The translations under genes were made by a program, and so were the position numbers. Of a DNA stretch of 64,000 nucleotides, positions 8,190 to 63,154 are shown in pieces. The DNA comes from Agelas oroides. Lineage: Eukaryota > Porifera > Demospongiae > Agelasida > Agelasidae. The stretch covers positions 434,001 to 498,000 of the forward strand of contig OX422204.1 of the NCBI GenBank assembly GCA_949130485.1. The letters run 5' to 3'. Position 1 is the stretch's first letter. Each line of letters begins with the position of its first letter. The notes under the pieces were generated by a model, which was not told the DNA's origin, ran no database searches, and was given only the letters and a program-made list of their open reading frames with translations.

Positions 8190-8282
8190 AACGAATGAAA
8201 CAAACTGCAAGCTTTTAAAGTCTCCTCCTGAAGCTCCTATCTCTTGTACTCTAGCCAACTGTGCTGCAGGAGGCCACAATCG

Positions 8283-8293
8283 CTTTTATAAAT
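8283..8293 (-). promoter_or_regulatory. TATA box of fibrinogen-like gene B
   Basis: The minus strand reads ATTTATAAAAG about 95 bp upstream of the MKMLL start codon. The same element sits at the same distance upstream of copy C (13602-13612), and the whole interval between TATA and ATG is conserved between the two genes. Transcription would start near 8258, excluding the upstream TTG. Confidence 0.7.
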
Positions 8294-13508: not shown

Positions 13509-13601
13509 AATGAATGAAACAAACTGCAAGCTTTTAAAGTCTCCTCCTGAAGCTCCTATCTCTTGTACTCTAGCCAACTGTGCTGCAGGAGGCCACAATC
13601 A

Positions 13602-22121: not shown

Positions 22122-22232
22122 TGTGCAGGATGCAAGCATGCCCAAAAGAAGAAGACTTAGCCCTGCAGGAATGTGCAAGATATTTCTCGGCTGAGCCCGT
22201 GTCGGAGTGACCGATCATTCCTGCTGGAATGC

Positions 22233-24143: not shown

Positions 24144-25064
24144 ATTGTGAAAGATTAGCTACTCTATCATGCAGTTGTCAATCAGTCAGTGATCATGCAG
24201 CTATTAGCCAAATCAGTCATCAATATCATGCAGTTGTCAATCAGTCAGTGCATGATCATGCAGCTATAGCCAAATCAGTTGTCAATATCATGCAGCCGTT
24301 ATTATTTATCTTATTTAATCAATTGAACACTTAACTAAAAGTAAACTTGAGGAACGTAAACAATGATATTCAGTAGTTTGTGTGAATCTGGAAGAGAGAC
24401 CAGTGAAACAGAACAACATATAAAATGGTTTGCAACAATCATACACACTTAGAAACGTATTCAGCTTGGCATTTATTGTGTTAAGCACACACCACTGGCT
24501 CTTCGGCTAAACCATATAGGCTATACTACAAAAAAATGTTGGTCCCCAATGGTGTCCACCATACGGAAGAGTTCCACTGTAAACCATAGGCTATACATGA
24601 AACCTACAGACCAGGTCTTTTTCCAAGGCTGGCTGGGCAGAGCCTGGGAATGAGTCTACAATAAACCTACACCAGAGTCAACCACTACTGAGTGACAGAA
24701 TACAGCTGGTGTTAATTAACACTACTAACAACGTTAGCATTACAAGTAGCTACAGTAGCTAATGTGCATCCCTCCAAAATTTCAGAGAGGGCTCTGAGTG
24801 GTACAGCATTCCAAGTACTTCCACAGTACTCCAGCATTCCAAGTACTTCTCTGCATTACCATGGTAATGCAGAGAAGCTTAACAGTTACATGTTTACGTT
24901 GCACTAGTTTGGCATCTGCATTGCACGTTGTCCAGCAGTGCAGCTAGGCACTTGTCAGTACAGGTAGTTAGTGTAGCCAGTTGCTAGTACAATAGAGCAA
25001 TGTGACAGGGTGTGCCTCCTATATTCAGTACTACTGCTAGCACGTGCATGGACAGGGGAACGTC
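24144..25064. other. Spacer between GT14 copies 1 and 2
   Basis: 24144-24620 is near-identical to the 3' flank of copy 3 (32378-32760 onward) and holds one copy of the unit (GGTCCCCAATGGTGTCCACC..) that is expanded to an array there. 24846-24877 is a perfect 32-bp palindrome centred on CCATGG. 24880-25025 matches the flank of truncated copy 4 (33700-33851). Confidence 0.75.
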
Positions 25065-28624: not shown

Positions 28625-29220
28625 TAGCCTCGTTCCCAGGCTCTCCCCTCACCCCGACGAAAAATAAAAACGGAGGGGGAGAGCCTGGGACCGATTCGCA
28701 TGTAATATCGCGGCACAACGACGTCACAGCAATAATTACAAAAGTTGTGACGCAATTATGCAGCCACGTGATTGGTTGACTTGAACAGCTACGATATTAC
28801 TACTGAAACAAGTGAGCTGTGACTGCGTCGGTGAGACCTCGGCACAGGTCAAACAGCAGCGACAGCGGAGAAGTACCCAATACGTAGGAAAAAACTTTGC
28901 CTATTTACTGTTACCATGCTACGAGGCTATGAAGAAAGACTTTAGTTGGCTAGCGCTACACTCTGGCGTACAAAATAAACTCACAACCACATTTTAAAGC
29001 TCCAACATAGCTACACAACAATAAACGAGTTGTAGTAACAAACTCCTGAGCTGAGAGTACTTCGCAGCTCCTTCGCGGTCTTCACGTGAGTGACGTTTCA
29101 GGTTATTTAATGGTTAGTGCAAAGTTGTCGTGCCGCGATATCATGTGCGAATTGGTCCCAGGCTCTCCCCCTCCGATTTTATTTTCGTCAGGGCGAGGGG
29201 AGAGCCTGGGAACGAGGCTA
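28625..29220. mobile_element. 596-bp TAGCCTCG MITE with exact 9-bp target duplication
   Basis: Terminal inverted repeats of about 100 bp: the left begins TAGCCTCGTTCCCAGGCTCT and the right ends GGGAACGAGGCTA. GAGAACAAG is repeated exactly on both sides (28616-28624 and 29221-29229). The interior holds no transposase. Confidence 0.92.
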
Positions 29221-29262
29221 GAGAACAAGTACTTCAATCATACCGCTCAAAGCGTGTTATGA

Positions 29263-29613
29263 CTACAGCGGAGGGAATGTGCAACATGTCCATGCCCAAA
29301 ATGGGATGTTATTCAAAAACACCTCAAAGAGAGCACAGGGTTTGAGGGGGGGATATACACCACGTGCTACAAATCTCATCTTCTTGTTCTGAAAGAGAAC
29401 AAACCCATTAGCAGGGACAGTGATTTGGAGGAGCTAATTAGCACTTACACTGAACAAATCCCACCAACTGATGAGGTCATCACTGCTCATGATGTAATTA
29501 AGACAGTTGTCAGAGTAGGGCACATACTGCACAAAAAGCAAGCAGTACTGCTGCCTAGTGTTCGCAACATTTTTGTGAGTCATGCCAGAGACCTCCTTAA
29601 GTCAATGCTGTGA
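29263..29613 (+). pseudogene. Coding-like fragment, unknown family
   Basis: A frame is open for 116 codons from after the TGA at 29260 to the TGA at 29611. It has a protein-like composition: ECATCPCPKWDVIQKHL, then GIYTTCYKSHLLVLKENKP, then DLEELISTYTEQIPPTDEV. There is no in-frame ATG before 29425 and I see no partner exons. It begins just after a MITE. I do not recognise it; it may be one exon of a broken gene or of a transposon gene. Confidence 0.35.
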
Positions 29614-29742
29614 GGAGATAGAACAGGTGGGTATTAAGTGACTAATGATGTGAAGTGATTAATAGACTGGGAATATGTGTGTCTGCGGATACACTATCAA
29701 GGTTTTTTATACAGTTATGTGTGAAACAGACACCTAGTAAAA

Positions 29743-30137
29743 AAGTCTCGCAAGCCAGACCCAACCAACCCCAGCGCGGATCGCTTTCAGTATCATGCAC
29801 GGGGAAGGAAGGGTCTGGTGACTCTCAGTAGGTTTTCGTGTGCTACGTCGTGATTGCTGTGTAGACAATCTGATTGGCTACGGTCACATGACTTTGAGCT
29901 AATATCGACAGGTGAAAACACTGAATTGGAAGACAGTCATGACGTTCATTACCCATGCTAGCACTTATAGCACACCTACTTAATGTGACTTTATCAAACA
30001 TTTTCCTCGTGACTTCCGTGTTTAATGCATTCCACTTGCACACGGAAACCTACTAGAGTCACCAGACCCTTCTTTCCCCGTGCATGATACTGAAAGCGAT
30101 CCACACTGGGGTTGGTTGGGTCTGGCTTGCGAGACTA
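29743..30137. mobile_element. 395-bp TAGTCTCG-type MITE, long inverted repeats
   Basis: Arms of over 100 bp: AGTCTCGCAAGCCAGACCCA on the left is mirrored by TGGGTCTGGCTTGCGAGACT on the right, and the match continues through CTTTCAGTATCATGCACGGG. Flanks CTAGTAAAA and CTAGTAATA match at 8 of 9 positions. No coding sequence is inside. Confidence 0.88.
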
Positions 30138-30871
30138 CTAGTAATACATGTATGTACATGTGTAACTGTGTGATGGCTAGCAAATTACCTTACTGAAAGT
30201 ATTTATACACATGGCTATGTGTAAATGTGTGTCATCTAGTGTGTAACAGCAAACCTTGTAACTGTGTGTAAAGAATAGTGTGTAACAAAGTGTCTTTTGT
30301 GAGCACTTTACAAAATTATATGTATGGCATATTTACTTGCCGTCCGGAAAACATTTTGGCAGAATGCTATCAACTTGGTTTTTTGACTGTTACTTCTTCA
30401 TACACTCACCTAACATATATGTAGTTTTCGGCTTGCTCTGGTATACCATCGTAAAGTAATGGCTGCTTTTATGGCACTCAATCGCAGCTTACATTTCGAT
30501 CCCGTTCGGGTTAGCCGTCTTCCCTGCCGACAGAAGTTAAAGTTCCCTTCAAGTAGTACGTCATTGTATAAAATAGAGATCTAGCTACTTCTTGAAGCCG
30601 TAGGAGACTTGATTTCTTCAACGAAATGTGGCTATACAACTACTTCTCTCTGCTGTGTATCTTCACACCGAAGACCGCCATTTAGGCGGAAACAATGACG
30701 TCACGGTGCAAATAAATTCACGTGATTTTTCCGTTGGCGACACGACTGGAGAGTCAATTTTTCAATCTTCCCTCACTATAGACCGTGATAGCTGGAGTAT
30801 TGCTGAAAGATCATGTGTGCCGCATGGCAAGATGTCCCTCAGTAATGTCTTTTAATACTGCTAATTTGGAT
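30138..30871. other. Upstream region of GT14 copy 3
   Basis: No gene. About 30750-30871 (TCTTCCCTCACTATAGACCG onward) is shared with the upstream region of copy 5 at 35040-35157, including potential upstream ATGs, so it is probably 5' UTR or promoter sequence common to the two. Confidence 0.5.
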
Positions 30872-32377
30872 ATGAAACCCTTGTCATCTTTCTTCAAATC
30901 GTCATGGAAATTCCTGATGTTCTTCGTCTTCTGTCTGATGACGGGATATGCATTGTACTACTGTAGCATCACAAACAGTGAACTTTCAGATATTTGGCAA
31001 TCTGAACCGACATTGACTAATCCTACCATCCATACGATTAGTTATAGATTGATGTACACCCCAAAGACTAATGTACAGGTGGTGAAAGAAGCGACACAAG
31101 CTATGAGAATAGATACTTTTAACACCACAAAGTCCCCAGACCCAAAACACCAAGTTCCACTCACTGAGCAAAGACCTCAGTGTAATGCAAGTGGCATTAC
31201 ATCTTGGGAACATGGTGTTGTGACTCAGTTTTTCCCTCTAATTAAAAGAAACTGCTCAAAGCTTATAGCAGGTTCACAGGGTGAAGTGTACAATGTCAGG
31301 CAACAGCTGAAAGTGTGGAAGAATGAGGAATCTGATGCGCAGTTTGTCCAGAGGATGAGCAACTGTGCAAATGTTATTGAAGAGTTTTCCAACAACTTTT
31401 ACGTATCATCTGAAGATAAAGACTTCCCCCTTGCATTTATTTTTGTTGTGTACACAAATGCGAGGCAAGTTGTGAGGCTGTTGAAGGCCATTTACAGACC
31501 TCACAACTTGTACTGTATTCACCCTGATGCAAGACAAGGGGAAGGATTTGCTCGAGTCTTTCGACAGATCTCAAAATGTCTGGACAATGTCTTTGTTGCC
31601 TCAAAGTTGATAAATGTGTATTACCAGCACCATACCATCATGGATTCTCAGCTGAACTGTATGGAAGATCTACTGAAGTATGAACCTCATAGATGGAAGT
31701 ACGTGATTAACTTGTGTGGCCGAGAACTACCTTTGAAGACCAATAGAGAAATTGTTTCTAGCCTGAAAAAGTTGAAAGGGACAAGTGCCATAGACTCTGT
31801 GTTGTTAGGTAGACAGGCGCATATCTGGGAAGACCGTTTCACACACAAGATTGCACTCAATTACACAAGCGGTCGTATTTACTATACCTCTCAGAAAGCT
31901 GGTCGTCCGCCACACCACATACGGATCTACAAAAGCTTTAACTTTATAGCAGCAACTAGACTATTTGCAGATTTTATACTTCACAGCAGAAAAGCAATCG
32001 ACTTTCGGAATTACCTCAAAGAACTAAAAATCCCAGAGGAGCACTTCTATGCATCCTTGGGTCGCCTTCCAGAAGCACCTGGTGGCTATCCAAAGAGTGG
32101 CAACATAGCTGTTCCTGTAGTTGACCAGTATATTTGGCTAAATTCAGCTGGAAAACCCAGGAAGTATCACCAGGTCTGTGAGGGAAAGCCAGTGCACTTT
32201 ATATGCATATTAACTGTAGGAGATTTACCTGAGATATATCGCCTGGGTGTCTACAACCCTCGGCCACATTTCTTCTTTAACAAATACTTTATGGAGGATG
32301 ACCATGTTGTGATGGATTGTATGGAAGAGAGACTTGTAAAACAGAACTTGTTAGAGTATAAACGTGACTGTGGTTGA
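30872..32377 (+). CDS. Core-2/I-branching GlcNAc-transferase, copy 3
   Basis: 501 residues from the MKPLSSFFKSSWKFLMFF start, chosen because this methionine is the only one conserved in copies 3, 5 and 6; in-frame ATGs at 30824 and 30845 are alternatives. A short cytoplasmic tail leads into an anchor (FLMFFVFCLMTGYALYY), a short stem and the GT14 domain with IPEEHFYASLGRLPEAPGG. From VYYQHHTIMDSQLNCMEDLL to the end it differs from copy 1 at only a handful of residues, while the N-terminal part belongs with copy 5. This makes it a mosaic of two lineages. Confidence 0.88.
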   Translation: MKPLSSFFKSSWKFLMFFVFCLMTGYALYYCSITNSELSDIWQSEPTLTNPTIHTISYRLMYTPKTNVQVVKEATQAMRIDTFNTTKSPDPKHQVPLTEQRPQCNASGITSWEHGVVTQFFPLIKRNCSKLIAGSQGEVYNVRQQLKVWKNEESDAQFVQRMSNCANVIEEFSNNFYVSSEDKDFPLAFIFVVYTNARQVVRLLKAIYRPHNLYCIHPDARQGEGFARVFRQISKCLDNVFVASKLINVYYQHHTIMDSQLNCMEDLLKYEPHRWKYVINLCGRELPLKTNREIVSSLKKLKGTSAIDSVLLGRQAHIWEDRFTHKIALNYTSGRIYYTSQKAGRPPHHIRIYKSFNFIAATRLFADFILHSRKAIDFRNYLKELKIPEEHFYASLGRLPEAPGGYPKSGNIAVPVVDQYIWLNSAGKPRKYHQVCEGKPVHFICILTVGDLPEIYRLGVYNPRPHFFFNKYFMEDDHVVMDCMEERLVKQNLLEYKRDCG

Positions 32378-33852
32378 ATTGTGAAAGATTAGGTACTCTA
32401 TCATGCAGTTGTCAATCAGTCAGTGATCATGCAGCTATAGCCAAGTCAGTCATCAATATCTTTATCTTATTTAATCAATTGAACACTTAACTAAAACTAA
32501 ACTTGAGGAACGTAAACAATGATATTCAGTAGTTTATGTGAATCTGGAAGAGAGACCAGTGAAACAGAACAATGCATGCAGGAAGTATACCTATAAATCA
32601 TGGTTAATGGTTTACAACAATCATACACTATTCAGCTTGGCATTTATTGTGTTAAGCACACACCACTGGCTCTTCGGCTAAACCATATAAGCTATACTAC
32701 AACAAAATCTTGGTCCCCAATGGTGTCCACTGTAGAGGGGTTCCACTGTAAACCATAGGCTATACTACAACAAAATGTTGGTCCCCAATGGTGTCCGCTA
32801 TAGAGGGGTTCCACTGTAAACCATAGGCTATACTACAACAAAATGTTGGTCCCCAATGGTGTCCACTGTTGAGGGGTTCCACTGTAAACCATAGGCTATA
32901 CATGAAATCTACAACAAAATGTTGGTCCCCAATGGTGTCCGCTATAGAGGGGTTCCACTGTAAACCATAGGCTATACTACAACAAAATGTTGGTCCCCAA
33001 TGGTGTCCACTGTTGAGGGGTTCCACTGTAAACCATAGGCTATACATGAAATCTACAACAAAATGTTGGTCCCCAATGGTGTCCGCTATAGAGGGGTTCC
33101 ACTGTAAACCATAGGCTATACTACAACAAAATGTTGGTCCCCAATGGTGTCCATTGTAGAGGGGTTCCACTGTAAACCATAGGCTATACTGCAACAAAAT
33201 GTTGGTCCCCAATGGTGTCCACTGTAGAGGGGTTCCACTGTAAACCATAGGCTATACTGCAACAAAATGTTGGTCCCCAATGGTGTCCACTGTAGAGGGG
33301 TTCCACTGTAAACCATAGGCTATGTTGGTCCCCAATGGTGTCTGCTGTAGAGGGGTTCCACTGTAAACCATAGGCTATGTTGGTCCCCAATGGTGTCTGC
33401 TGTAGAGAGGTTCCACTGTAAACCATAGGCTGTACATGAAACCTACAGACCAGGTCTTGTTCCAAGGCTGGCTGGGGAATGAGTCTACAATAAAGTAACG
33501 GAATGCAGCTGGTGTTAATTAACACTACTAACAACGTTAGCATTACAAAAACTCCTTCATGTTGTACCGGTTTACAAATATCAATAGCTAGCTACTTTTC
33601 TCTTTAGCTACAGTAGCTAATGTGCATCCCCCCAAAATTTCAGAGAGGGCTCTGAGTGGTACAACATTCCAAGTACTTCCACATGCTAATGCAGAGAAGC
33701 TTAACAGTTACATGTTTACGTTGCACTAGTTTGGCATCTGCATTGCACGTTGTCCAGCAGTGCAGCTAGGCACTTGTCAGTACAGGTAGTTAGTGTAGCC
33801 AGTTGCTAGTGTACAATAGAGCAATGTGACAGGGTGTGCCTCCTATATTCAG
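32378..33852. other. Spacer between GT14 copies 3 and 4
   Basis: 32378-32700 matches the 3' flank of copy 1, 32690-33430 is a 68-bp repeat array, and 33430-33852 matches the upstream flank of copy 2. This is the same arrangement as between copies 1 and 2, so a block with two genes was duplicated. Confidence 0.7.
32690..33430. repeat. About 68-bp minisatellite, roughly 11 copies
   Basis: The unit contains GGTCCCCAATGGTGTCCACT, GTAGAGGGGTTCCACTGTAA and ACCATAGGCTATACTACAAC. Units are 52-80 bp long because the spacer part varies. The paralogous flank at 24536-24600 has a single unit, so the array expanded after the block duplication. The GGTTCCACTGTA motif resembles termini of pogo/Tc1-type elements. 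Open frames across it are repeat artefacts. Confidence 0.93.
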
Positions 33853-34300
33853 GCAATTTGCTCACTATTTATTAACCAATCAGAAAGCTGCAGACTTCAG
33901 ACACTATCTCAATGATGTTTGGATGCCCGAAGAATCATTTTATGCATCCCTTTATCGATTCCCAGAAGCTGCACGCTATGGTGGACACTCTAACACTGTG
34001 AGACTACCAGTTCCATTCCCAGAGGTGAGTATATGGCTCATAAGATTGGGCCAAAGACTGACCGCAGAGCGTTGTTCAGGGTTGAAAGTACACTCTCTTT
34101 GCATTGTAGCAACCGGTGATCTTCACAGAGTGTACGAGATTGGTGTTGATAAGGATTATTTCTTCTTCAACAAGTACTTTATGGAGGTTGACCACGTCAT
34201 AATGGATTGTATGGAGGAGAGGCTTGTGAAACAGAATATGGTGGAGTATGCCCAGGATGTGGGCTGTCTACTGCCTCCCGAAGTCACAATTCATCATTAA
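33853..34300 (+). pseudogene. 5'-truncated GT14 copy 4
   Basis: Encodes only the last 149 residues of the enzyme, from QFAHYLLTNQKAADF to LLPPEVTIHH, and is nearly identical to copy 2. Directly upstream, 33700-33852 matches the 5' flank of copy 2, so about 1.46 kb (equivalent to 25027-26484, from just upstream of the start codon to the middle of the catalytic domain) has been deleted cleanly at an AG dinucleotide. It lacks the anchor, the stem and half of the catalytic domain. It retains the PEESFYAS active-site segment. A functional enzyme is unlikely. Confidence 0.9.
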
Positions 34301-35157
34301 TAATAATACACTGGAGTAGCTAACATCAATGAAAGTTGCAGCATAGCTACATAGCTAGTTTTGAGGCCTATGCACCTCTGACGGTCAGCATGGAAATTGT
34401 ACGTTCTCATTCAATAATATGTGGCTATTTGTGTCATCCCACATGAAATGGAGCCCTGATATATGATGCAAAGATACTTCCACTTTGTCTCACAAAGCTG
34501 AAACTCTCTCGCTCGTCTCGCCGGCGCTGTTCAGTTTGGTTTTCCAATTTCATACAACTTGGTTGTGTTCAACAGTGCATGTTTTGTGTATATACTTGTT
34601 TGTATACTGTCTAAGTAATGAAGTCACAGTGTCTTGGAGGTGTGTGCACATGCAAATCCAAATGGGGAGTTATGTAGCCTAGTCTCGTGCCCAGACGGCG
34701 CAACAAATGCGGTCTGGGGACGAGACTAGACACCTCAATCTATCTGTGGGCGTGTGATTTAGCCTCGTTCCCAGGCCATACCTATCACAACGGTAGCCTG
34801 AGAACGAGGCTCAGAATCCAGTCACCGTTCACCAGTCACCACAACCCAGGTTAAGCAGGAAGCTAACTAAATTTCAACATTTTCTAGAATAGTTCGAGTC
34901 TAGAATGCATACTAATCTTCTTCCTAGTACCTCCGCCCAGCTTTTCGTCGCTTGTGACTCGGCAGGAATTTCGACGGAAAATTGGGCGGAGTCATTTTTC
35001 CAAGGATACTTTGTTACTAAATTATCCTTGATTTTTCAGTCTTCCCTCACTATAGACCGTGATAGCTGGAGTATTGCTGAAAGAGCATGTGTGCCGCATG
35101 GCAAGATGTCCCTCAGTAATGTCTTTTAATACTGCTAATTTGGATTTGATTTCAGAT
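34301..35157. other. Spacer between copies 4 and 5
   Basis: Matches 26937-27600 including the two mini-MITEs (34680-34728, about 34761-34812) and then switches at about 34998 to the upstream sequence of copy 3 (30750 onward). The switch marks a recombination breakpoint. Confidence 0.7.
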
Positions 35158-36699
35158 ATGAAACCCTTGTCATCTTTCCTCAAATCGTCATGGAAATTCC
35201 TGATGTTCTTCGTCTTCTGTCTGATGGTGGGATATGCATTGTACTACCGTAGCATCACAAACAGTGAACTTTCAGATATTTGGCAATCTGAATCGACATT
35301 GACTAATCCTACCATCCATACGATTAGTTATAGATTGATGTACACCCCAAAGACAAATGTACAGGTGGCGAAAGAAGCTAACCTAACGACACAAGCTGTG
35401 AGAATAGATACTTTTAACACCACAAATTCCCCAGACCCAAAACACCAAGTTCCACTCACTGAGCAAAGACCTCAGTGTAATGTAAGTGACATTAAGTCTT
35501 GGGAACATGGTGTTGTGACTCAGTTTTTCCCTCTAATAAAAAGAAACTGCTCAAAGCTTATAGCAGGTTCACAGGGTGAAGTGTACAATGTCAGACAACA
35601 GCTGAAAGTGTGGAAGAATGAGGAATCTGATGCCCAGTTTGTCCAGAGGATGAGCAGCTGTGCGAATGTTATTGAAGAGTTTTCCAACAACTTTTACGTA
35701 TCATCTGAAGAGAAAGACTTCCCTCTTGCATTTATTTTTGTTGTGTACACAAATGCGAGGCAAGTTGTGAGGCTGTTGAAGGCCATTTACAGACCGCACA
35801 ACTTGTACTGTATTCACCCTGATGCAAGACATGGGGAAGGATTTGCTCAAGTCTTTCGGCAGATCTCAAAATGTCTGGATAATGTCTTTGTGGCCTCAAA
35901 GTTAGAGAGAGTCTACTATGGCCACCATAGTATAATGGATGCTCAACTGAGCTGCATGAAGGATCTGACAGAATATGACCAGTCTAGGTGGAGGTATGTC
36001 ATCAACTTGGTTGGACGAGAGTTACCCTTGCAGACAAACCAACATATTGTGAAGCTATTAAAACATGCAAGCAATGTCAGTATAGTGGAGTCACAACCAA
36101 TTGGAAAATCCTTCTTTAACGAACGGTTTAAGTACAAAATAGGAGTCAATTATCGTACTGGAAGGCTGTACAGGATGCGAGAAAAACTAGCTGCAACACC
36201 ACACGGTATTAAGATTTATAAGGGCAGTACTCACTTTGCACTTACAAGGCAATTTGCTCACTTCCTTTTAACCAATCAGAAAGCCATAGATTTCCAACAA
36301 TACCTCAATGATGTTTGGATTCCAGAGGAATCATTTTATGCATCACTTTTTAGGCTCTCAGAATCTGAAAACGAAGGTGGTCACTCAAACATTGTGACTC
36401 TACCAATTCCCTACACAGAAGTGAGTATATGGCTTGCCAAACTAAGTCCAAAGGAAGTCTTGGAGCGTTGTTCAGGGTTTAAACGTCATGCTGTTTGCAT
36501 TGTAGCCACAGGTGATCTTCACAGAGTGTACGAGATTGGTGTTAATAAGGATTTTTTCTTCTTCAACAAGTACTTTATGGAGGTCGACCACATCATAATG
36601 GATTGTATGGAGGAGAGGCTTGTGAAGCAGAATATGGTTGAGTATGCTCAGGATGTGGGCTGTCTACTGCCTCCCGAAGTCAGAAATAATACACAATGA
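35158..36699 (+). CDS. Core-2/I-branching GlcNAc-transferase, copy 5
   Basis: 513 residues from the MKPLSSFLKSSWKFLMFF start conserved in copies 3 and 6 (ATG at 35158; in-frame ATGs at 35098 and 35119 are alternatives). The anchor and stem are close to copy 3. The catalytic half is of the copy 2 type with its own substitutions (VWIPEESFYASLFRLSESEN at the catalytic Glu position) and the C-terminus is AQDVGCLLPPEV. No disruption is seen. Confidence 0.88.
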   Translation: MKPLSSFLKSSWKFLMFFVFCLMVGYALYYRSITNSELSDIWQSESTLTNPTIHTISYRLMYTPKTNVQVAKEANLTTQAVRIDTFNTTNSPDPKHQVPLTEQRPQCNVSDIKSWEHGVVTQFFPLIKRNCSKLIAGSQGEVYNVRQQLKVWKNEESDAQFVQRMSSCANVIEEFSNNFYVSSEEKDFPLAFIFVVYTNARQVVRLLKAIYRPHNLYCIHPDARHGEGFAQVFRQISKCLDNVFVASKLERVYYGHHSIMDAQLSCMKDLTEYDQSRWRYVINLVGRELPLQTNQHIVKLLKHASNVSIVESQPIGKSFFNERFKYKIGVNYRTGRLYRMREKLAATPHGIKIYKGSTHFALTRQFAHFLLTNQKAIDFQQYLNDVWIPEESFYASLFRLSESENEGGHSNIVTLPIPYTEVSIWLAKLSPKEVLERCSGFKRHAVCIVATGDLHRVYEIGVNKDFFFFNKYFMEVDHIIMDCMEERLVKQNMVEYAQDVGCLLPPEVRNNTQ

Positions 36700-37254
36700 C
36701 ATCAATGAAAGTTGCAGCATATATTATAGTTTGGAGACTTATGTGATATACACCGTCGTATCAGCTCAATAATGCCTATACATAGTGTGTTCATATATAA
36801 TTGTCTGCAATGGATTCTGCATATAAAGTCTATTTGTTCAGATATGTGATCAGGAATGTTTTTGCTGTATTCATAAATCCACATTGGTAGATATTTCGAT
36901 TTTCAATGCAACTTGCATGGACCTGCATTCAAGATGATTATACGAGTATGAAAAGCGTGTGTGTAACTATTTCTATTTAAACACTAGCTAGCTAATCCTT
37001 AGGTCTTGATAAAAATGTTGTGACAAGCTATCACTATATAGGTCTTGATAAAACTAGCTCTCGTCTCCTCTCCAAGCTCCCCACATTGAGAGCAGTACCA
37101 GATCACATACCTTGCTTATGTGCTCCCACATTCCCAATCCTTTCCAACTCTGGAGCATCATTGTCAGGGTTTACTGTTCACCTGGAAACTACAGACAGCA
37201 TGTCTATTACTACCTAACTGGTAGCTTCGTACCCAATGAATGAACCTGGGTGTG

Positions 37255-37660
37255 AAGCTACCCAACTGGACAGCACGTCTATCACTACACAACTGGAGAC
37301 TATAGACAGCACGTCTATCACATCACCACCCAACTGGAGACTACAGACAGCACGCCTGATGCTACCCAACTGGAGACTACAGACAGGACGTCTGATGCCA
37401 CCCAACTGGAGACTACAGACAGGACGTCTGATGCCACCCAACTGGAGACTACAGACAGCACGTCTGATGCTACCCAACTGGGGACTACAGACAGCACGTC
37501 TGATGCCACCCAACTGGGGACTACAGACAGCACGTCTGATGCTACCCAACTGGGGACTATACAGACAGCACGTCTGATGCTACCCAACTGGGGACTACAG
37601 ACAGCACGTCTGATGCTACCCAACTGGAGACTACAGACAGCACGTCTATCACTACCCAAG
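37255..37660. repeat. 36-bp minisatellite, about 11 copies
   Basis: The unit is built from ACCCAACTGGAGACTACAGA and CAGCACGTCTGATGCT. The period is a multiple of three, so frames stay open on both strands (for example 37236-37577 and 37214-37549); none of these looks like a real protein. Confidence 0.93.
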
Positions 37661-38675
37661 GTGCACTGTGATTTCCTGATGAAACAGGTTTATGACCTGA
37701 GTGGAATGCGAGGCACCTATAAACATTCCTCATGACATGGGGTTGACAAAGACCACAGTTTGTTTTATGATAGGATGATCCAGCTTCTGTAAACCACTTG
37801 TCCTATGGCAAACATTTTAAGGCACCAGTAAACACTATCTAATTAGGAGGAGAGTGGAGGGAGTCCTACAACAACTGGCTTGCATGCTTGATTCTGCACT
37901 GCTGTTTATTCGGCAGAACATAGTAGGGACTTGCCACAGATATCTCAGGGCAGAATTTCAAAATGTATAAACAATGTTTCGACCAATGCGATCTTCCTCA
38001 GGTGTTCCTATATACTAACCACTATCTAATTAGACTTTGCAAAAACAAATAAATAAATAATAAAATGTTGCACTTGCTCTGCAGCGTCTTAATGCACAAT
38101 TAAAACCATCTCATATTTGCTTGGATACAGAAATATTTGCATGAGTACAAAAGTGCTATGTATAAGTCGTATAAGGTTTTTGACAAAACAAGTGTGTATC
38201 ACTATAGGAGAACAAACAAGTGATATGTCAGCCACTTCCTAGTGCTGCCAAGTACGCAGGCACCTTACAAGACCACTTGTACAATTTGCATAACTAGAAC
38301 TGCATGCAAATTGGAATGTGACTTCAAGCTAGCCAACACTGAATCCACGCTGTGGTTGGACATCAAATACTTTTGTATCCAAGCTATCATAATTCATATA
38401 TACCGGTATCATTACTGTATTAATCAGTGCCGGATAAGCGTGTCGTTCAGAACAAGACGTAGACGGCAGTTCTTCATTGCAAGGTACTTTAGTGTTAACA
38501 GTTACTTGTTAGCTATTATATATATAATGAGCTGCTAACGTAACGATGTATCTAGTGCACGAATTGTTTGTTGCTTGCATGCATGAGTATGCTCTTGTAT
38601 CTTCACGAGTGGCCGAGGGTCACGGAACGCTTTGGTGCACAACGCCGCGAGTACCTAGTACTGTTCTACTCTCAA

Positions 38676-39030
38676 GCAAGGTTCACGGACCCACAAGGGT
38701 ATGGCCAACAGGCAAGGTTCACGGACCCACAAGGGTATGGCCAACAGGCAAGGTTCACAGACCCACAAGGGTATGGCCAACATGCATGACACGGACCCAC
38801 AAGGGTATGGCCAACAGGCAAGGTTCACAGACCCACAAGGGTATGGCCAACATGCATGACACGGACCCACAAGGGTATGGCCAACATGCATGACACGGAC
38901 CCACAAGGGTATGGCCAACATGCATGACACGGACCCACAAGGGTATGGCCAACATGCATGACACGGACCCACAAGGGTATGGCCAACATGCATGACACGG
39001 ACCCACAAGGGTATGGCCAACAGGCATGTA
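38676..39030. repeat. 34-36 bp minisatellite, about 10 copies
   Basis: The unit has GGACCCACAAGGGTATGGCC followed by AACATGCATGACAC or by AACAGGCAAGGTTCAC, giving two interleaved subtypes. Long minus-strand frames (repeating HACWPYPCGS) are artefacts. Confidence 0.93.
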
Positions 39031-39394
39031 CCAATACAACACAAAACACATGCACAGGCTAGATAAAGAACTGTTCCGAGTTGGGCTGGCTCAGCTGTCT
39101 TTGGTGTTTGGTCGAACCGAAAAAAGGCAGGCCTAGGTTATGCAAAGTCACCAACTCAATACCAGGCCTCATCAGCTGCACTGCATGGGGTGACTGGGAG
39201 ATGGGGACTGTTACCTCGTGCATAAAATGCTGCCAGCTAGGTAGATGGCCTGGACTTTCATGCTAGCCTTTTCTGATGTATAGCGAGCTAACTAACTACT
39301 ATAGCTACTGTTCCGCAAGATAGTACAACTATGTTGAATTCCTCACAATTTACACTTTATTGCCTTCACTCCTAGTTTGGACGGTAATTCAGAT

Positions 39395-41125
39395 ATGAAA
39401 CCATTGTCATCTTTCCTCAAATCATCATGGAAATTCCTGATGTTCCTTGTCTTCTGTCTGATGGCGGGATATGCATTGTACTACAGTGGCTTCACATTCA
39501 GTGAAGTCAGCTCAGATATCGCACAATCTGAAGCAATAACAATTAATCGTGCCCCAAAGTCGGACATGGAAATAGCAACCAAGGCTACCACACAAGCTAT
39601 AAAGATAGATTCTGTCAACATCAGTAGATCCAACCATACACGAGAGGAGAGATGGAATGGAAGTATAACTCAATACTTGCTACCAGCTACTGAAAAGGAC
39701 CTGAGTGCAATCTTGTCCTTGCCTACTAAATTGAATATTTCATTGTCTTATTCAGCAGCACAACATACTGGTAGTGCTGAATTTCCAACAGTACCTGATC
39801 AAAGCAACAAAGAGTATTTTCGTCAATTATTTTCCCAATATTCCATACCACCTACAAACACATCTGCAAGTTCACCAGTCGTTCAACTCTCACATACCGT
39901 ATCCACAGACTCAAAGCGAGTTACACACAGCATGAAAAGACCTCGCTGTAATGCAAGTGGCATTACGTCTTGGGAACATGGTGTTGTGACTCAGTTTTTC
40001 CCTCTAATTAAAAGAAACTGCTCAAAGCTTATAGCAGGTTCACAGGGTGAAGTGTACAATGTCAGACAACAGCTGAAAGTATGGAAGAATGAGGAATCGG
40101 ATGCCCAGTTTGTCCAGAGGATGAGCAACTGTGCGAATGTTATTGAAGAGTTTTCCAATAACTTTTATGTATCATCTGAAGAGAAAGACTTCCCCCTTGC
40201 ATTTATTTTTGTTGCGTACACAAATGCGAGGCAAGTTGTGAGGCTGTTGAAGGCCATTTACAGACCTCACAACTTGTACTGTATTCACCCTGATGCAAGA
40301 CAAGGGGAAGGATTTGCTCGAGTCTTTCGGCAGATCTCAAAATGTCTGGGTAATGTCTATGTGGCCTCAAAGTTAGAGAGAGTCTACTATGGCCACCATA
40401 GTATAATGGATGCTCAACTGAGCTGCATGAAGGATTTGCTAGTGAGGTATTCTGCCTCTAGGTGGAAGTATGCAATCAATGTATGTGGGCGAGAGGTTCC
40501 AGTGAAAACTAACAGAGAAATAGTAAGCAGCTTGAAGAAGCTTAATGGCTATTCGGCTTTAGGGGATGCTAAACGTGTACTTCCATATACGTGGAAACAA
40601 CGCTTTCAGTACAAGACTGTACTCACAAAAAAAGGAGTATGGAAAACCAGGAAGAAGTTGGGGCCTCCACCTCCTGGAATTCAACTCTACAAAAGCCTGA
40701 CCTTCATTGCAGCAAGTAGGCAATTTGCATCATATATGCTGACAAGCAAGAAAGCCATCGCTTTCCGGAACTATCTCAAACCTGTGTACATCCCAGAGGA
40801 GCACTTTTATGCTTCATTGTACGTGCTTCCTGAGGCACCTGGTGGTAGACCAGTTGATAAGTCTGTTAGAGTCCCCATAGTGAATGATGTCATATGGTTG
40901 AGTAGTCGCTGGGCGAAAAGCCACAGGTGGAATATATGTCATGGTTTGGATGTACATTCGGTCTGTGTGCTAGATTGCTACGATCTTCACACAATTTTCA
41001 AGTATGAATCAAACGCTTTCTTCTTCAACAAGTATTTCATGGAGAAAGACCACATAATTATGGAGTGTGCAGAAGAGAAGCTTGTGCAACGTAACATGCA
41101 GGAATACGAAAAGGATTGTTCCTAG
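39395..41125 (+). CDS. Core-2/I-branching GlcNAc-transferase, copy 6
   Basis: 576 residues from the ATG at 39395 (the conserved MKPLSSFLKSSWKFLMF start). The stem is about 60-75 residues longer than in copies 3 and 5 and is rich in Ser, Thr and Asn. The segment from SGITSWEHGVVTQFFPLIKR to ARQGEGFARVFRQISKCL is nearly identical to the other copies. The C-terminal half is the most divergent of the array (WKYAINVCGREVPVKTN; YIPEEHFYASLYVLPEAPGG; final YEKDCS). No disruption is seen. It may have a different acceptor preference, which is inference. Confidence 0.88.
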   Translation: MKPLSSFLKSSWKFLMFLVFCLMAGYALYYSGFTFSEVSSDIAQSEAITINRAPKSDMEIATKATTQAIKIDSVNISRSNHTREERWNGSITQYLLPATEKDLSAILSLPTKLNISLSYSAAQHTGSAEFPTVPDQSNKEYFRQLFSQYSIPPTNTSASSPVVQLSHTVSTDSKRVTHSMKRPRCNASGITSWEHGVVTQFFPLIKRNCSKLIAGSQGEVYNVRQQLKVWKNEESDAQFVQRMSNCANVIEEFSNNFYVSSEEKDFPLAFIFVAYTNARQVVRLLKAIYRPHNLYCIHPDARQGEGFARVFRQISKCLGNVYVASKLERVYYGHHSIMDAQLSCMKDLLVRYSASRWKYAINVCGREVPVKTNREIVSSLKKLNGYSALGDAKRVLPYTWKQRFQYKTVLTKKGVWKTRKKLGPPPPGIQLYKSLTFIAASRQFASYMLTSKKAIAFRNYLKPVYIPEEHFYASLYVLPEAPGGRPVDKSVRVPIVNDVIWLSSRWAKSHRWNICHGLDVHSVCVLDCYDLHTIFKYESNAFFFNKYFMEKDHIIMECAEEKLVQRNMQEYEKDCS

Positions 41126-47466: not shown

Positions 47467-47564
47467 CTTCCCACAAGGTCAACTCCCAGTAAAAGTTGTT
47501 AATGAAATGTGACAGGGTCTGAGTCAAAGTTATTAAAGTAGTTAACAATTTTTGATCACTTGCC

Positions 47565-50240
47565 AATGCCTACCCACCTCCAGTTTTGATCACCTACCCA
47601 CCTCCAGTTTTGATCGCCTTCCCACCTCCAGTTTTGATCGCCTACCCACCTCCAGTTTTGATCGCCTACCCACCTCCAGTTTTGATCGCCTACCCACCTC
47701 CAGTTTTGATCACCTACCCACCTCCAGTTTTGATCACCTACCCACCTCCAGTTTTGATCGCCTACCCACCTCCAGTTTTGATCGCCTTCCCACCTCCAGT
47801 TTTGATCACCTACCCACCTCCAGTTTTGATCGCCTTCCCACCTCCAGTTTTGATCACCTACCCACCTCCAGTTTTGATCACCTACCCACCTCCAGTTTTG
47901 ATCGCCTACCCACCTCCAGTTTTGATCGCCTACCGACCTCCAGTTTTGATCACCTACCCACCTCCAGTTTTGATCGCCTACCCACCTCCAGTTTTGATCA
48001 CCTACCCACCTCCAGTTTTGATCGCCTACCCACCTCCAGTTTTGATCACCTACCCACCTCCAGTTTTGATCACCTACCCACCTCTAGTTTTGATCGCCTA
48101 CCCACCTCCAGTTTTGATCGCCTACCCACCTCCAGTTTTGATCGCCTACCCACCTCTAGTTTTGATCACCTACCGACCTCCAGTTTTGATCACCTACCCA
48201 CCTCCAGTTTTGATCACCTACCCACCTCCAGTTTTGATCGCCTACCCACCTCCAGTTTTGATCACCTACCCACCTCCAGTTTTGATCGCCTACCCACCTC
48301 CAGTTTTGATCGCCTACCCACCTCCAGTTTTGATCGCCTACCCACCTTAAGTTTTGACCGCCTACCCACCTCCAGTTTTGATCACCTACCCACCTCCAGT
48401 TTTGATCGCCTATATACCCACCTCCAGTTTTGATCGCCTACCCACCTCCAGTTTTGATCACCTACCCACCTCCAGTTTTGATCGCCTACCCACCTCCAGT
48501 TTTGATCACCTACCCACCTCCAGTTTTGATCACCTACCCACCTCCAGTTTTGATCGCCTACCCACCTCCAGTTTTGACCGCCTACCCACCTCCAGTTTTG
48601 ATCACCTACCGACCTCCAGTTTTGATCGCCTATATACCCACCTCCAGTTTTGATCGCCTATATACCCACCTCCAGTTTTGATCGCCTATATACCCACCTC
48701 CAGTTTTGATCGCCTATATACCCACCTCCAGTTTTGATCACCTACCCACCTCCAGTTTTGATCACCTACCCACCTCCAGTTTTGATCGCCTTCCCACCTC
48801 CAGTTTTGATCGCCTACCCACCTCCAGTTTTGACCGCCTTCCCACCTCCAGTTTTGATCACCTTCCCACCTCCAGTTTTGATCGCCTTCCCACCTCCAGT
48901 TTTGATCGCCTATATACCCACCTCCAGTTTTGATCACCTTCCCACCTCCAGTTTTGATCGCCTATATACCCACCTCCAGTTTTGATCGCCTACCCACCTC
49001 CAGTTTTGATCGCCTACCGACCTCCAGTTTTGATCACCTACCCACCTCCAGTTTTGATCGCCTACCCACCTCCAGTTTTGATCACCTACCCACCTCCAGT
49101 TTTGATCGCCTACCCACCTCCAGTTTTGATCACCTACCCACCTCCAGTTTTGATCACCTACCCACCTCTAGTTTTGATCGCCTACCCACCTCCAGTTTTG
49201 ATCGCCTACCCACCTCTAGTTTTGATCACCTACCGACCTCCAGTTTTGATCACCTACCCACCTCCAGTTTTGATCGCCTACCCACCTCCAGTTTTGATCA
49301 CCTACCCACCTCCAGTTTTGATCACCTACCCACCTCCAGTTTTGATCACCTACCCACCTCCAGTTTTGATCGCCTACCCACCTCTAGTTTTGATCACCTA
49401 CCCACCTCCAGTTTTGATCGCCTACCCACCTCCAGTTTTGATCGCCTACCCACCTCCAGTTTTGATCGCCTACCCACCTCCAGTTTTGATCACCTACCCA
49501 CCTCCAGTTTTGATCACCTACCCACCTCCAGTTTTGATCGCCTACCCACCTCCAGTTTTGACCGCCTACCCACCTCCAGTTTTGATCACCTACCGACCTC
49601 CAGTTTTGATCGCCTATATACCCACCTCCAGTTTTGATCGCCTATATACCCACCTCCAGTTTTGATCGCCTATATACCCACCTCCAGTTTTGATCGCCTA
49701 TATACCCACCTCCAGTTTTGATCGCCTATATACCCACCTCCAGTTTTGATCACCTACCCACCTCCAGTTTTGATCACCTACCCACCTCCAGTTTTGATCG
49801 CCTTCCCACCTCCAGTTTTGATCGCCTACCCACCTCCAGTTTTGACCGCCTTCCCACCTCCAGTTTTGATCACCTTCCCACCTCCAGTTTTGATCGCCTT
49901 CCCACCTCCAGTTTTGATCGCCTATATACCCACCTCCAGTTTTGATCACCTTCCCACCTCCAGTTTTGATCGCCTATATACCCACCTCCAGTTTTGATCA
50001 CCTACCCACCTCCAGTTTTGATCGCCTATATACCCACCTCCAGTTTTGATCACCTACCCACCTCCATGCAGTTTTGATCGCCTACCCACCTCCAGTTTTG
50101 ATTGCCTTCCCACCTCCAGTTTTGATCACCTTCCCACCTCCAGTTTTGATCGCCTACCCACCTCCAGTTTTGATCGCCTACCCACCTCCAGTTTTGATCA
50201 CCTACCCACCTCCAGTTTTGATCGCCTTCCCACCTCCAGT
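47565..50240. repeat. 24/28-bp minisatellite, 2.7 kb, about 110 copies
   Basis: The unit is CCCACCTCCAGTTTTGATCG (or TCA) plus CCTA, 24 bp long, with a 28-bp variant containing TATATACCC. A block around 48600-49000 recurs at about 49610-50010 with an offset of 1012 bp and the same order of variants, so a 1-kb higher-order duplication lies inside. All three frames on plus are open for long distances (up to 293 codons), which is a property of the 24-bp period. The CCTCCAGTTTTGATCGC core matches the inner part of the MITE family. Confidence 0.96.
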
Positions 50241-51310
50241 TTTCACCCCGGAACGAATGTTTCAGAACAACCGTGAAATATTTGGACCTACCATGAAAAA
50301 ATCGCTCCACCTTCCAGGCGTGCAAGTGTACTTCTGTCCAAACTGGAAACCCATATGGTATGCATGTTTTTTATTGCATATTTGCACAATTCATGCAATT
50401 TCCAGTACTTAATTTTGGGTTAGACCACTATGCTTCTCAGCCCTTCATATTAAAAGTTATGTTCACATCACAAGAGTCCTACAGGCATGATTTGAACCAC
50501 CCTGAACTCGAGTAAAGCTGTCCTACACGCATAATTTCTAGTTGTTCAAGTGGGTTCGCCAGAGACAAACCACCCTGATCTTGCATTCGTTTCTCCTGAA
50601 CCACTCATGTTTCAGAGGAATCATGTGGTTTGTCTCATTTGTCTTCTGCCAAACCCACTCAAACCACTGCTGTCCATTAGAAAGCATGCCTGCAGGAGAA
50701 TTTTACTCGAAGTCAGGCATGCTTTCTAATGGACAGCAGTGGTTTGAGTGGGTTTGGCAGAAGACAAATGAGACAAACCACCCTGAACTTGAATAAAACT
50801 TATTATACATCACTAAACACATTTTAGTGCCTCTTTCTAGACCTGATACAGTACTTTTGGAAAAAGGCTACACCAGTTTTCTGTCGGTTCTTGGGTCAGA
50901 GGGAGCTGGGCTAAAGGCTACCGAACTTGGAATGGGATCCTCGAATACGTGGCATGGTACCCCAGATGTGCAAGTGAGGGGGACGGAGATTTTATCCCAT
51001 GGATCTGAGGATGAGGATGAAGATGATGATGGTGAGTGTAGTACTGCTACTGATGGAGCAACTACTCCAATAGAAGCAAAAAGGGCAATTCAGAGAGAGA
51101 ATTTGTCACAAGTTGTTGCCACTTGTTGTGTCCTCGTTTACTGAATGCAATCTCCATCCCGATAAACAAACAGCTGTGCCAACTATATTTATTGATCAGA
51201 AACGATTTCAGGTGTGTCTCTACGATTGTGAATGTGATATTTTGCTAGTGTCCAGCCCAATTCTGCTAGCACACCCAAAAGAGCACTCATCAAGACATGT
51301 ACTACTGCTT
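50241..51310 (+). pseudogene. Broken gene of unknown family
   Basis: Three coding-like pieces lie in order. At 50244-50363 a frame reads ERMFQNNREIFGPTMKKSLH then LPGVQVYFCPNWKPIW and ends at a donor-like GTATGC. At 50827-51110 a frame reads GYTSFLSVLGSEGAGLKATE, then a run of acidic residues, then RENLSQVVATC. The third piece, SSFTECNLHPDKQTAVPTIF followed by IDQKRFQVCLYDCECDILLV, continues in another frame, so a single-base indel near 51120 breaks the protein. An inverted-repeat element lies between the first two pieces. I believe related proteins occur in marine invertebrates, but I cannot name the function. Confidence 0.4.
50627..50779. repeat. Perfect 66-bp inverted repeat with 21-bp loop
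   Basis: The arms 50627-50692 and 50714-50779 are exact reverse complements, from GGTTTGTCTCATTTGTCTTC through AAAGCATGCCTG. The sequence after the right arm (ACCCTGAACTTGAATAAA) resembles 50500-50517 (ACCCTGAACTCGAGTAAA), so other copies of the flank are nearby. It would make a very stable hairpin in DNA or RNA. Confidence 0.93.
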
Positions 51311-60136: not shown

Positions 60137-60571
60137 CTAGTTGCAAGACGTCGAGGTTGTTTTTACTGCGCAATTACATGCTGTTATATTCTCGAATCGG
60201 ATTTGAACAGTTTGTTGGCAATTGTGTCCCGTTACTGTCACAGATTGTGTCACCGTCGTGGTCAAGGCCGGGACGCAGTAATCTTGTGTTTTGAAGCAGG
60301 CAAAAGCGTAGTGGTGTGACATGCAGTCGCTGCCATCATTCATACATATTCCTTTCCACACCTCTACGTCGACTTCAGTTTGTCCGCAAATCACACCCTG
60401 TAGGTCGACCGTCTCGAACCGTCGAACTCCGAGTGCGCATTTTCCGTCATGGGTGCTGGGGAGAGCACTTACTGGCGGGTAATAATAGGTAAGATAGTCG
60501 GTTGGCGAGTAAGGGGCAACCAGAACTGCGACTTGGGAGACGAAGAAGACGATCAGTACACACTTCCACAT
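60137..60571 (-). CDS. Secreted cystine-knot protein, glycoprotein hormone beta (GPB5)-like
   Basis: 144 residues from the ATG at 60571. A signal peptide (MWKCVLIVFFVSQVAVLVA) is followed by about 30 residues and then ten cysteines. The order KCALGVRRFETV, ICGQTEVDVEVWKGIC, VTVTGHNC and the closing TACNCAVKTTSTSC follows the beta-subunit plan of thyrostimulin and the pituitary hormones, whose C-terminal part ends C-x-C-x2-C-x(5-6)-C. Two framework cysteines seem absent: the first of C-x-G-x-C (here VWKGIC) and one in the C-terminal group. ENIT and KTTS stretches include an N-glycosylation site. Its divergent neighbour at 61083 resembles the alpha subunit. A Spaetzle/NGF-type cystine knot is the main alternative. 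It is a single exon as read. Confidence 0.6.
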   Translation of the reverse strand: MWKCVLIVFFVSQVAVLVAPYSPTDYLTYYYPPVSALPSTHDGKCALGVRRFETVDLQGVICGQTEVDVEVWKGICMNDGSDCMSHHYAFACFKTQDYCVPALTTTVTQSVTVTGHNCQQTVQIRFENITACNCAVKTTSTSCN

Positions 60572-61082
60572 TTTGGTCGAGTGTGAGCGCTGTGGTATAA
60601 TGAGAGAGAGTGAAAGTGAATTGAGTGTCTTTTTGAAATGTGATATTACTGGGTATACGCAGTTATATTAGCAGTTGGCGATGTGTGTTATCACAAATTT
60701 TCAGACTGAAAATGAGACATGCATGCAGTGAGAAAGAGAGAGTCTAAATATGTAGCTGGCTGCAAATAACGTATTACTAGTATAATGTGCGGTCAGCGCA
60801 CAACTTGTGCGCGCGTCAACAAAGACCTACCTTCGCAAACTGTAGTACAAAACTGTAGTACGAACTTCTCAAACGTCTTGCACAGGGTAACTACTTACTC
60901 TGCACGAAGCTGCTTTTTTTTTAACTAGTTGTAAGTTGTATTCATAGCGGATGTTGTAAGGGGGCGTTCGACCGTTCGCACTGTCGTACTCGGTAGCGGC
61001 GTAGCGGTAACTATATAAGAATAGACTCGACACGTGTGTGTTTAGATTGCAATTTCGCAGCAGTACAGAATCCGAAAGCGAG
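60572..61082. promoter_or_regulatory. Shared divergent promoter region
   Basis: 511 bp separate the start codons of two head-to-head genes. On plus, TATATAAG at 61012-61019 would place transcription start near 61045, so the in-frame codon at 61038 is probably outside or at the very edge of the mRNA and the ATG at 61083 is the start. On minus, a weaker AATATAAC lies near 60665. Together with the related products, this suggests joint regulation. Confidence 0.5.
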
Positions 61083-61532
61083 ATGAACAACGTACTCTTT
61101 GCCACGGTGGTGTTGCTATCGTTTTTCTGCATTTCGATGCAAAGTCCCTGCAGTTTGGACTCGTACACTCACGAGGGGCAACTCCACAATCCAAGGATTG
61201 CAGGCCATCCCAATTTCAGAGTGGTTTGCAATATGGACGTTTCCGTGTGCTACGGTGGATGCCATACGGAACACCAGTATAAAGTGCACAAATATAGCGG
61301 AGGATCCCACGGCGCAATGTCGTACTGCCATATTAATGTCAAGTGCTGCACGGCGCTCACCGTTGTAAGGAAAACTCCATTGTACACCTGCGTACCGCAC
61401 AGTGGATACACGGGAACTCCGCCCTCCCATTCAAGTACGTATTACGTATACATACAGCAGGCAACGGACTGTGAGTGCCAGAACTGTATCCAAAGTTCTA
61501 CCGTAGCTCACTGTAACGCGCTACACGCATAG
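61083..61532 (+). CDS. Secreted cystine-knot protein, glycoprotein hormone alpha (GPA2)-like
   Basis: 149 residues from the ATG at 61083, about 65 bp after a TATA box. A signal peptide (MNNVLFATVVLLSFFCISMQ) precedes twelve cysteines. All ten of the alpha-subunit framework can be placed: SPC, VVC, the C-x-G-x-C knot motif (VCYGGC), the adjacent pair in INVKCCTAL, LYTC, and the closing C-x-C-x2-C (DCECQNC), which in GPA2 and the common alpha subunit is also a C-x-C-x2-C preceded by a short TA-type stretch. Two extra cysteines (MSYC and VAHC) are not in the vertebrate protein. Such a protein would be secreted and dimerise with a beta subunit to signal through an LGR-type receptor. A mucin or bursicon-type CTCK domain is the alternative. 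Confidence 0.7.
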   Translation: MNNVLFATVVLLSFFCISMQSPCSLDSYTHEGQLHNPRIAGHPNFRVVCNMDVSVCYGGCHTEHQYKVHKYSGGSHGAMSYCHINVKCCTALTVVRKTPLYTCVPHSGYTGTPPSHSSTYYVYIQQATDCECQNCIQSSTVAHCNALHA

Positions 61533-62501: not shown

Positions 62502-63154
62502 GAGTGGTGTTGCATACTGCAAGTGATCAAAAAATGGAGGTGGTATAGAGTGAAGTGCAAGCTAAATAGTAAATTACCACATCAAAATACAGCACTAACT
62601 TCATAGCTGTACACAAGTCATGTTATTTGGGCACGAAAAAACAAACAAAAACACAAAAACAACTAAAAAAAACTACAAAATTAAGTGCCATGCTGACTTA
62701 AATGAAAACTTGACATTTTTGCATTCAACAATAAAATTAAGTTGTTTTTATTGCATTTGCTTAGTGAAATTGTTAGGAAATATGCCCCTAGCTCCTGATT
62801 CTTCAATGAAGCCCATTGACCAACCCTCTTCCTATAACAAGAAGAGACAAAGTACGTTTTTCTTTGAAGAAAAAGACTTGGTACAAATAAGAAATTCTAC
62901 CTATAGAAATTTGAGGGCAATTTGTTTAGCAAAACTGGTGATATGGAATGCACTAAATGCTAGGTTAGTGTCACACCAAGTCATCAGACACAATGATACG
63001 AGTTGGTTGATCTAGATATCAGGATTGTTGCCATGGAAGTTGTAACCCGCTAATGGATATGTAATCACTCACCTGTCAAATCAACCAGCTCTGAAATGGA
63101 TGGCCATTACACCCATATCCCACTGTCAGGTGAGGGGTGGATTCTAGTCATATG
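61533..63154. other. Intergenic, no gene supported
   Basis: AT-rich. 62473-62501 is a run of 29 C followed by GAGTGG, then a MITE-interior phrase (GCAAGTGATCAAAAAATGGA). A 131-codon frame at 62620-63015 has no recognisable motif and a low-complexity Lys/Thr/Asn start. The remaining exons of the SH3 gene should lie here or further left on minus, but I could not identify them. Confidence 0.5.

Follow-up and report, generated by a model that had tools for sequence, protein, structure and literature searches.

A head-to-head pair of candidate divergent cystine-knot hormones in a demosponge genome

Two small proteins, P0001 and P0002, are encoded head to head in the genome of a demosponge, and we consider it somewhat more likely than not that both are divergent proteins of the cystine-knot hormone (CKH) type. 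The best reading of their sequences places them among the cystine-knot growth factors, in the branch formed by bursicon, the glycoprotein hormones (GPH), Norrin and DAN. Because Pfam and profile searches miss both proteins, this membership rests on cysteine architecture; the layout resembling that of cystine-knot hormones, which a first-pass annotation had pointed out, was recovered in both. The genes lie in a window of 64,000 nucleotides (bases 434001-498000 of contig 22), the whole stretch of DNA analysed, in a genome of 259.3 Mb and 141 contigs.

The start codons of the divergently transcribed genes are 511 bp apart. Splice donors at codons 95 and 130 of P0001 and at codon 34 of P0002 were provisionally not taken to mark introns, since both frames run from ATG to stop across the cysteine framework. 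ATG frames of at least 144 aa arose in 30 of 300 simulated 4-kb stretches (second-order Markov), so the length of the two frames is not significant by itself. The N-termini are hydrophobic, with Kyte-Doolittle peaks over 11 residues of 2.7 in P0001 and 2.6 in P0002, both from residue 4, and appear signal-like. The pair of small divergent frames described in the first-pass annotation was borne out in frames, strands, spacing and hydrophobic N-termini, and the motifs it quoted (VCYGGC, KCC and DCECQNC; VTVTGHNC) are present in the translations of P0001 and P0002. A consensus scan of the 511-bp region revealed a TATATAA and an initiator-like TTAGATT ahead of P0001, the latter one of four initiator-like matches on the plus strand, and no TATA-type match near the P0002 start. 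The short divergent region shared by the genes suggests that they are jointly regulated.

Table. Location of the gene pair, its cysteine framework and related features of the same genome. Positions are those of the window unless a contig or residues are given.
Feature	Location	Strand	Description
P0001 frame	61083..61532	+	149 aa; ATG to stop, single uninterrupted frame
P0002 frame	60137..60571	-	144 aa; ATG to stop, single uninterrupted frame
Divergent upstream region common to P0001 and P0002	60572..61082		511 bp
TATATAA	61012..61018	+	71 bp upstream of P0001 ATG; consensus match only
Initiator-like TTAGATT	61042..61048	+	30 bp past TATATAA; consensus match only
P0001 cysteines	residues of P0001		I C23; a C49; II-x-G-x-III C56-YGG-C60; C82; C88; IV C89; b C103; V C130; VI C132; C135; extra C144
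P0002 framework residues	residues of P0002		I C45; a C62; W72 at Cys II site (WKGIC); III C76; IV C99 (or C92); b C118; V C132; VI C134
P0005 (L020)	contig 11, 8374313-8374729	-	139 aa, single open frame; from DAN profile search
Silicatein-type active-site exon L013	contig 4, 288406
Silicatein-type active-site exon L014	contig 4, 300425
LGR locus L015	contig 6, 9090901-9091728	-	44% identity to human FSHR 7TM query, E 1.6e-72
LGR locus L016	contig 10, 9407624-9408541	+	43% identity to human FSHR 7TM query, E 6.7e-58

Several other features were observed in the window. Tandem genes for Core-2/I-branching enzymes occupy 22161-41125 (+), with PF02485 in all four frames scanned, and by eye the frames at 33830-34300 and 35056-36699 resemble this array. 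A Gypsy-like retroelement lies at 1931-5890 (-); its protease, RT, RNase H and integrase domains are all encoded in a single 1320-aa open frame. Two closely similar proteins at 7206-8285 (-) and 12525-13598 (-) look secreted by eye, and the former gave no Pfam family at E<=0.001. A long coding-like repeat of PTSSFDRL/H units covers 47546-50412 (+), and more than one of its frames is open. Beyond P0001, an isolated fragment of eukaryotic LSU rRNA lies at 62859-63150 (+; Rfam, 73.1 bits, model 967-1379 of 3401).

Past its N-terminal stretch P0001 carries 12 cysteines: the 11 of Norrin and of P0005, a canonical CKH of the same genome, in the same order, and the extra C144. Knot numbering follows Norrin, TSH beta and P0005, together with known disulfide maps. 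By this numbering the six knot cysteines are present with C-x-G-x-C and C-x-C, and 11 of 11 framework cysteines stand in Norrin/bursicon order; the I-a and b-V loops exceed those of the references by about 10 residues, and the strict spacing pattern described below is not matched. P0001 had first been credited with all ten framework cysteines of the alpha subunit. One of them is missing, since the CYGGC of P0001 lacks the middle cysteine of the CMGCC of GPH alpha, and two others, C49 and C103, are foreign to alpha: they occupy what we take to be the sites of an extra disulfide pair that is found in Norrin and the beta subunits and is absent from alpha. P0001 therefore does not have the makeup of a GPA2, which is ten alpha cysteines and a CMGCC-type motif without the a-b pair.

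P0002 has ten cysteines past its N-terminal stretch. Codon 72 is TGG (Trp), leaving the knot incomplete; the remaining five knot cysteines can be assigned, IV with the least certainty, as can a and b. The G of xxGxC is retained, and the loop lengths from I through a, II, III, IV, b and V to VI (16, 9, 3, 22, 18, 13 and 1) are near-canonical. The last Cys of the CxCxxC end is absent, C83, C92 and C143 are surplus, and the single N-glycosylation sequon is at N128. The ring of the cystine knot is built from the II-V and III-VI bonds and, with Trp at Cys II, cannot close in the usual way. The altered knot that had been noted on the beta side was thus confirmed, in Trp72 and in the changed CxCxxC end. 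In a comparison whose beta references were TSH beta and FSH beta, P0002 did not show the complete knot, CAGYC-type motif and CxCxxC of a GPB5-type protein, and has WKGIC and CNCAVKTTSTSC instead. P0002 also departs from the rule, given in the available text of PMC4079206, that the six knot cysteines are invariant.

To assess the cysteine spacing, a strict pattern took its ranges, each widened by 2, from P0005, Norrin, TSH beta and FSH beta; it fits these four proteins and does not fit P0001 or P0002. A pattern modelled on P0001 was matched by 0 of 200,000 shuffles of that protein, and one for P0002 (the strict pattern without a requirement at residue II or for the last C) by 11 of 200,000 shuffles of P0002, figures that overstate significance because the patterns were partly relaxed with the sequences already known. 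The P0001 pattern also fits Norrin and P0005, and does not fit TSH beta, FSH beta or GPH alpha. A knot-only pattern was matched by 973 of 200,000 shuffles of P0001.

The patterns were also run in six frames over 163,993 bases, comprising 20 of 25 genome segments (L001, L003, L015, L023 and L024 were omitted, all except L023 overlapping other segments). The P0001 pattern matched P0001 and P0005 only, and the P0002 pattern P0002 and P0005 only, P0005 having come from the DAN search beforehand. The knot-only pattern matched, in addition, a low-complexity CVCV stretch in L010. The first knot pattern used on the window occurred there once and in 0 of 100 simulated windows; relaxed so as to match P0002 too, it occurred in 24 of 100.

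Profile and database searches did not recognise either protein. Pfam returned zero families at E<=10 for P0001 and P0002 alike; as Pfam holds both the GPA2 and the GPB5 families, the Cys_knot/GPH profile check proposed with the first-pass annotation gave no support to its labels. Neither protein was returned by PF00007 or PF03045 profile searches of its own genome, and phmmer searches of the PDB gave nothing for P0001 and chance-like rows only for P0002. No paralogue of either was found above chance in the genome; L002, L004 and L005 were rejected as paralogues (weak tblastn matches, E 0.7-4.3, 24-28% identity, internal stops). Viral contigs contained no relative of P0001 or P0002, and prokaryote contigs no relative of P0001.

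In pairwise tests against 1000 shuffles, the score of P0001 was reached by 27 with FSH beta, 130 with Norrin, 249 with TSH beta and 736 with human GPH alpha, the last lying below the shuffle mean. For P0002 the counts were 10 with Norrin, in an alignment with the knot out of register, 103 with GPH alpha, 306 with FSH beta and 517 with TSH beta, again below the shuffle mean. The score between P0001 and P0002 was reached by 11 of 1000 shuffles. As a yardstick, the four references were compared with each other in six pairs: 0 of 500 shuffles reached the scores of Norrin-GPH alpha, GPH alpha-FSH beta and TSH beta-FSH beta, and 21, 60 and 194 reached those of the remaining three. The pairwise test detects some accepted family members.

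Against a hand-made profile of the four references, shuffled P0001 scored at least as high as the real protein in 17 of 2000 cases, and shuffled P0002 in 55 of 2000. Profile HMMs of the four references ranked P0002 4th of 726 and 72nd of 735 six-frame segments and P0001 45th of 726 and 174th of 735, and placed neither first. A MAFFT alignment of six sequences hand-trimmed at Cys I had C1, G36, C38, C108 and C110 invariant in 6 of 6, the trimming partly imposing C1 and the C-terminal end; Trp72 is aligned to Cys II, and P0002 has its Cys IV out of register. When the two full proteins were aligned, CYGGC was set against WKGIC, and C45 and C134 of P0002 were not aligned to C23 and C132 of P0001.

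The genome also encodes a CKH that Pfam does recognise. A genome search with DAN (PF03045) gave four rows, of which the one above the cut-off is P0005 (DAN 29.7 bits, cut-off 22; Cys_knot 22.3 bits, below its cut-off of 24). The other rows, L021-L023, whose frames were read by eye, were rejected as under the cut-off; a scan of L021 and L022 showed no knot pattern. P0005 has its 11 cysteines ordered as in Norrin, and in the PDB it matched Gremlin-1 best (E 5.9e-4). Against P0005, the score of Norrin was reached by 0 of 2000 shuffles, that of P0001 by 13 (by 16 when aligned globally), TSH beta by 175, P0002 by 332 and GPH alpha by 903. Between P0001 and P0005 the register holds at II, III, IV, b, V and VI and fails at I and a. 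A first-look search gave no second genome match for P0005, and the flanking 9 kb or so to one side and 10 kb to the other contained no neighbour with a knot pattern. A Norrin query had 0 matches in the genome, a result uninformative by itself.

P0001, P0002 and P0005 are all single-frame genes, and P0001 shares the 11-cysteine order of P0005 with C144 added. P0005 differs from the window pair in being recognised by Pfam DAN, in its contig and in having no knot-pattern neighbour. A stand-alone CKH of the sort known from the literature thus exists in this genome, and the window pair is a separate, more divergent set. P0001 and P0002 are probably a duplicated pair far diverged from P0005, and their linkage may be ancestral or may reflect a lineage-specific inverted duplication.

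The resemblance of P0002 to this family is open to another explanation, that P0001 is a genuine divergent CKH and P0002 an unrelated or convergent cysteine-rich secreted neighbour. We regard this as unlikely, though it is the best placed of the alternatives. P0002 has no significant similarity to P0005 (332/2000) or TSH beta (517/1000), it lacks Cys II and the CxCxxC end, and its cysteine set is unusual. Against these points, its spacing falls within the reference ranges widened by 2 when II is left free (the 11/200,000 given above for a pattern relaxed after the fact), its xxGxC motif still has the G, and it adjoins P0001 and weakly resembles it (11/1000).

Trp72 itself might not be fixed, and could represent a polymorphism, an assembly error or a decaying copy. 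TGG differs from the Cys codons at the third base only, at an otherwise conserved position, and one haplotype only is represented. The rest of the P0002 frame is intact, however, and the C-terminal CxCxxC is changed too, which means that the changes to the knot region are not confined to one site; we find this explanation decidedly improbable. Two divergent CKH-type proteins remain our preferred reading.

A degenerate pattern for the silicatein motif matched the genome exactly at two sites, separated by about 12 kb on contig 4; its reversed control gave 0 matches. In the silicatein motif CGASYAFS, Ser replaces the cathepsin Cys. The best PDB match of the silicatein-frame stretch was silicatein alpha (6zq3, E 7.7e-13), followed, among the matches listed (best 60 of 113, E<=0.001), by an engineered cathepsin-silicatein and then cathepsins. 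From these matches the host is taken to be a silicatein-bearing demosponge, in agreement with the sponge host that the first reading had supposed.

A search with the human FSHR 7TM query at E<=0.01 returned two LGR loci, L015 and L016, and a third and final row that was far weaker (E 1.6e-4). The L015 frame contains LRRs, a 7TM domain and, by eye, a hinge with HCC and a CxPxPxxLxxC stretch, and two more LRR-bearing frames lie upstream of it. The L016 frame contains a long cysteine-rich hinge with TP-rich repeats and a 7TM domain. The 8,001 bases scanned upstream of L016 contained no LRR motif; an LRR array was seen at L015 only. For the LGR proteins, Pfam gave LRR_8 and 7tm_1 in P0003 and 7tm_1 in P0004. 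PDB scores of the L015 frame were 311 bits for TSHR, 298 for LHCGR, 293 for FSHR, 254 for LGR4, 226 for the family-1 GPCR 8w1z and 145 for RXFP1; those of L016 were 267 for TSHR, 236 for FSHR, 223 for LHCGR, 169 for 8w1z, 135 for LGR4 and 112 for RXFP1.

The search for an LGR-type receptor suggested in the first-pass annotation was therefore successful at two loci whose best PDB matches are glycoprotein-hormone receptors, and the type A/B LGRs of a GPA2/GPB5 or bursicon system are present. A further locus, L012 (GnHR_trans, PF12369), was rejected as a receptor: its 17.9 bits fall below the cut-off, the sequence around it is of low complexity, and inspection by eye showed no LGR features. The available text of PMC4079206 reports two LGRs with 7 and 26 LRRs in E. 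muelleri and an enlarged hinge in one sponge receptor, and the features of L015 and L016 fit these sponge LGRs. Both LGRs are candidate receptors for P0001 and P0002.

The labels GPA2 and GPB5, first given to the pair, could not be upheld: there is no Pfam match, scores with GPH alpha and TSH beta are reached by 736 and 517 of 1000 shuffles, and P0001 has the Norrin-type order. An a-b cysteine pair is assignable in both proteins and subunit-specific features in neither, which argues for divergent CKHs and not for GPA2 and GPB5. We consider it very improbable that they are true orthologues, from a linked heterodimeric pair older than sponges with P0002 as a degenerate GPB5: two knot-like proteins are adjacent (511 bp, divergent), as GPA and GPB mostly are in invertebrates (PMC8522476, available text), and GPHR-like LGRs occur in the same genome, but neither subunit type is recognised by Pfam or pairwise scores, P0001 lacks the middle cysteine of CMGCC and has a pair missing from alpha, and GPA and GPB lie in tandem in that source, whereas P0001 and P0002 diverge.

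Sponge CKHs and LGRs have already been described (Roch and Sherwood 2014, PMC4079206). As far as the available text of that paper goes, sponge CKHs resemble the window pair in phylum, in being small, secreted single-domain proteins and in occurring with LGRs in the genome; P0001 shares their Norrin/bursicon cysteine order, while the long loops of P0001 and the missing Cys II of P0002 set the pair apart. The same text states that sponge CKH subunits are typically not near duplicates, that the GPA2/GPB5 duplication is placed in early bilaterians, and that the CKHs of sponges, comb jellies and cnidarians are more probably homodimers, the ancestral state, with heterodimers arising from later duplications. 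A cnidarian pair, an exception according to the available part of its source paper, is likewise non-bilaterian with two linked cystine-knot hormone genes, and differs in host and in its complete knots. No report of a linked CKH pair in a sponge was found in the open-access literature searched, as far as its available text goes, most subscription journals and preprints lying outside that scope.

Among other known systems, thyrostimulin (GPA2/GPB5; PF00236, PF00007) likewise has two adjacent small cystine-knot-like genes, but P0001 and P0002 lack a profile match and alpha or beta features, are divergent, and include an altered knot in P0002. Norrin shares the 11-cysteine order, which was tested in P0001, the bursicon order being taken as stated in the available text of PMC4079206; P0001 gives no significant match to Norrin (130/1000 shuffles), and the P0002 knot is incomplete.

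A mechanism can be proposed for the pair on the reading that both are divergent CKHs. Bursicon and thyrostimulin heterodimers act on LGRs. On this reading P0001 has retained the full 11-cysteine framework with enlarged loops, and P0002 the framework spacing with a ring opened by Trp at Cys II. Cys132 of P0002 would then have to pair with Cys83, Cys92 or Cys143, or with the partner chain, so that P0002 could re-pair internally or bond to P0001. By analogy, the two proteins would be co-expressed from the 511-bp divergent region, secreted and then associated, presumably as a dimer, and their complex would serve as an extracellular ligand or modulator of one of the two LGRs. We put this heterodimer-to-LGR mechanism forward tentatively, as a possibility that falls well short of likely. 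A bolder version, that the pair is a linked two-chain hormone independent of or predating thyrostimulin and bursicon, in which the orphaned cysteine of P0002 bonds P0001 and the obligate disulfide heterodimer acts on one LGR, is speculative and would hold only against long odds.

With a divergent pair, a canonical CKH and two LGRs in one genome, this animal, which has no neurons, offers a way to test how heterodimeric hormones of the glycoprotein type arose. An open-ring knot occurring in nature would, moreover, put to the test how much change a cystine knot tolerates before the fold is lost.
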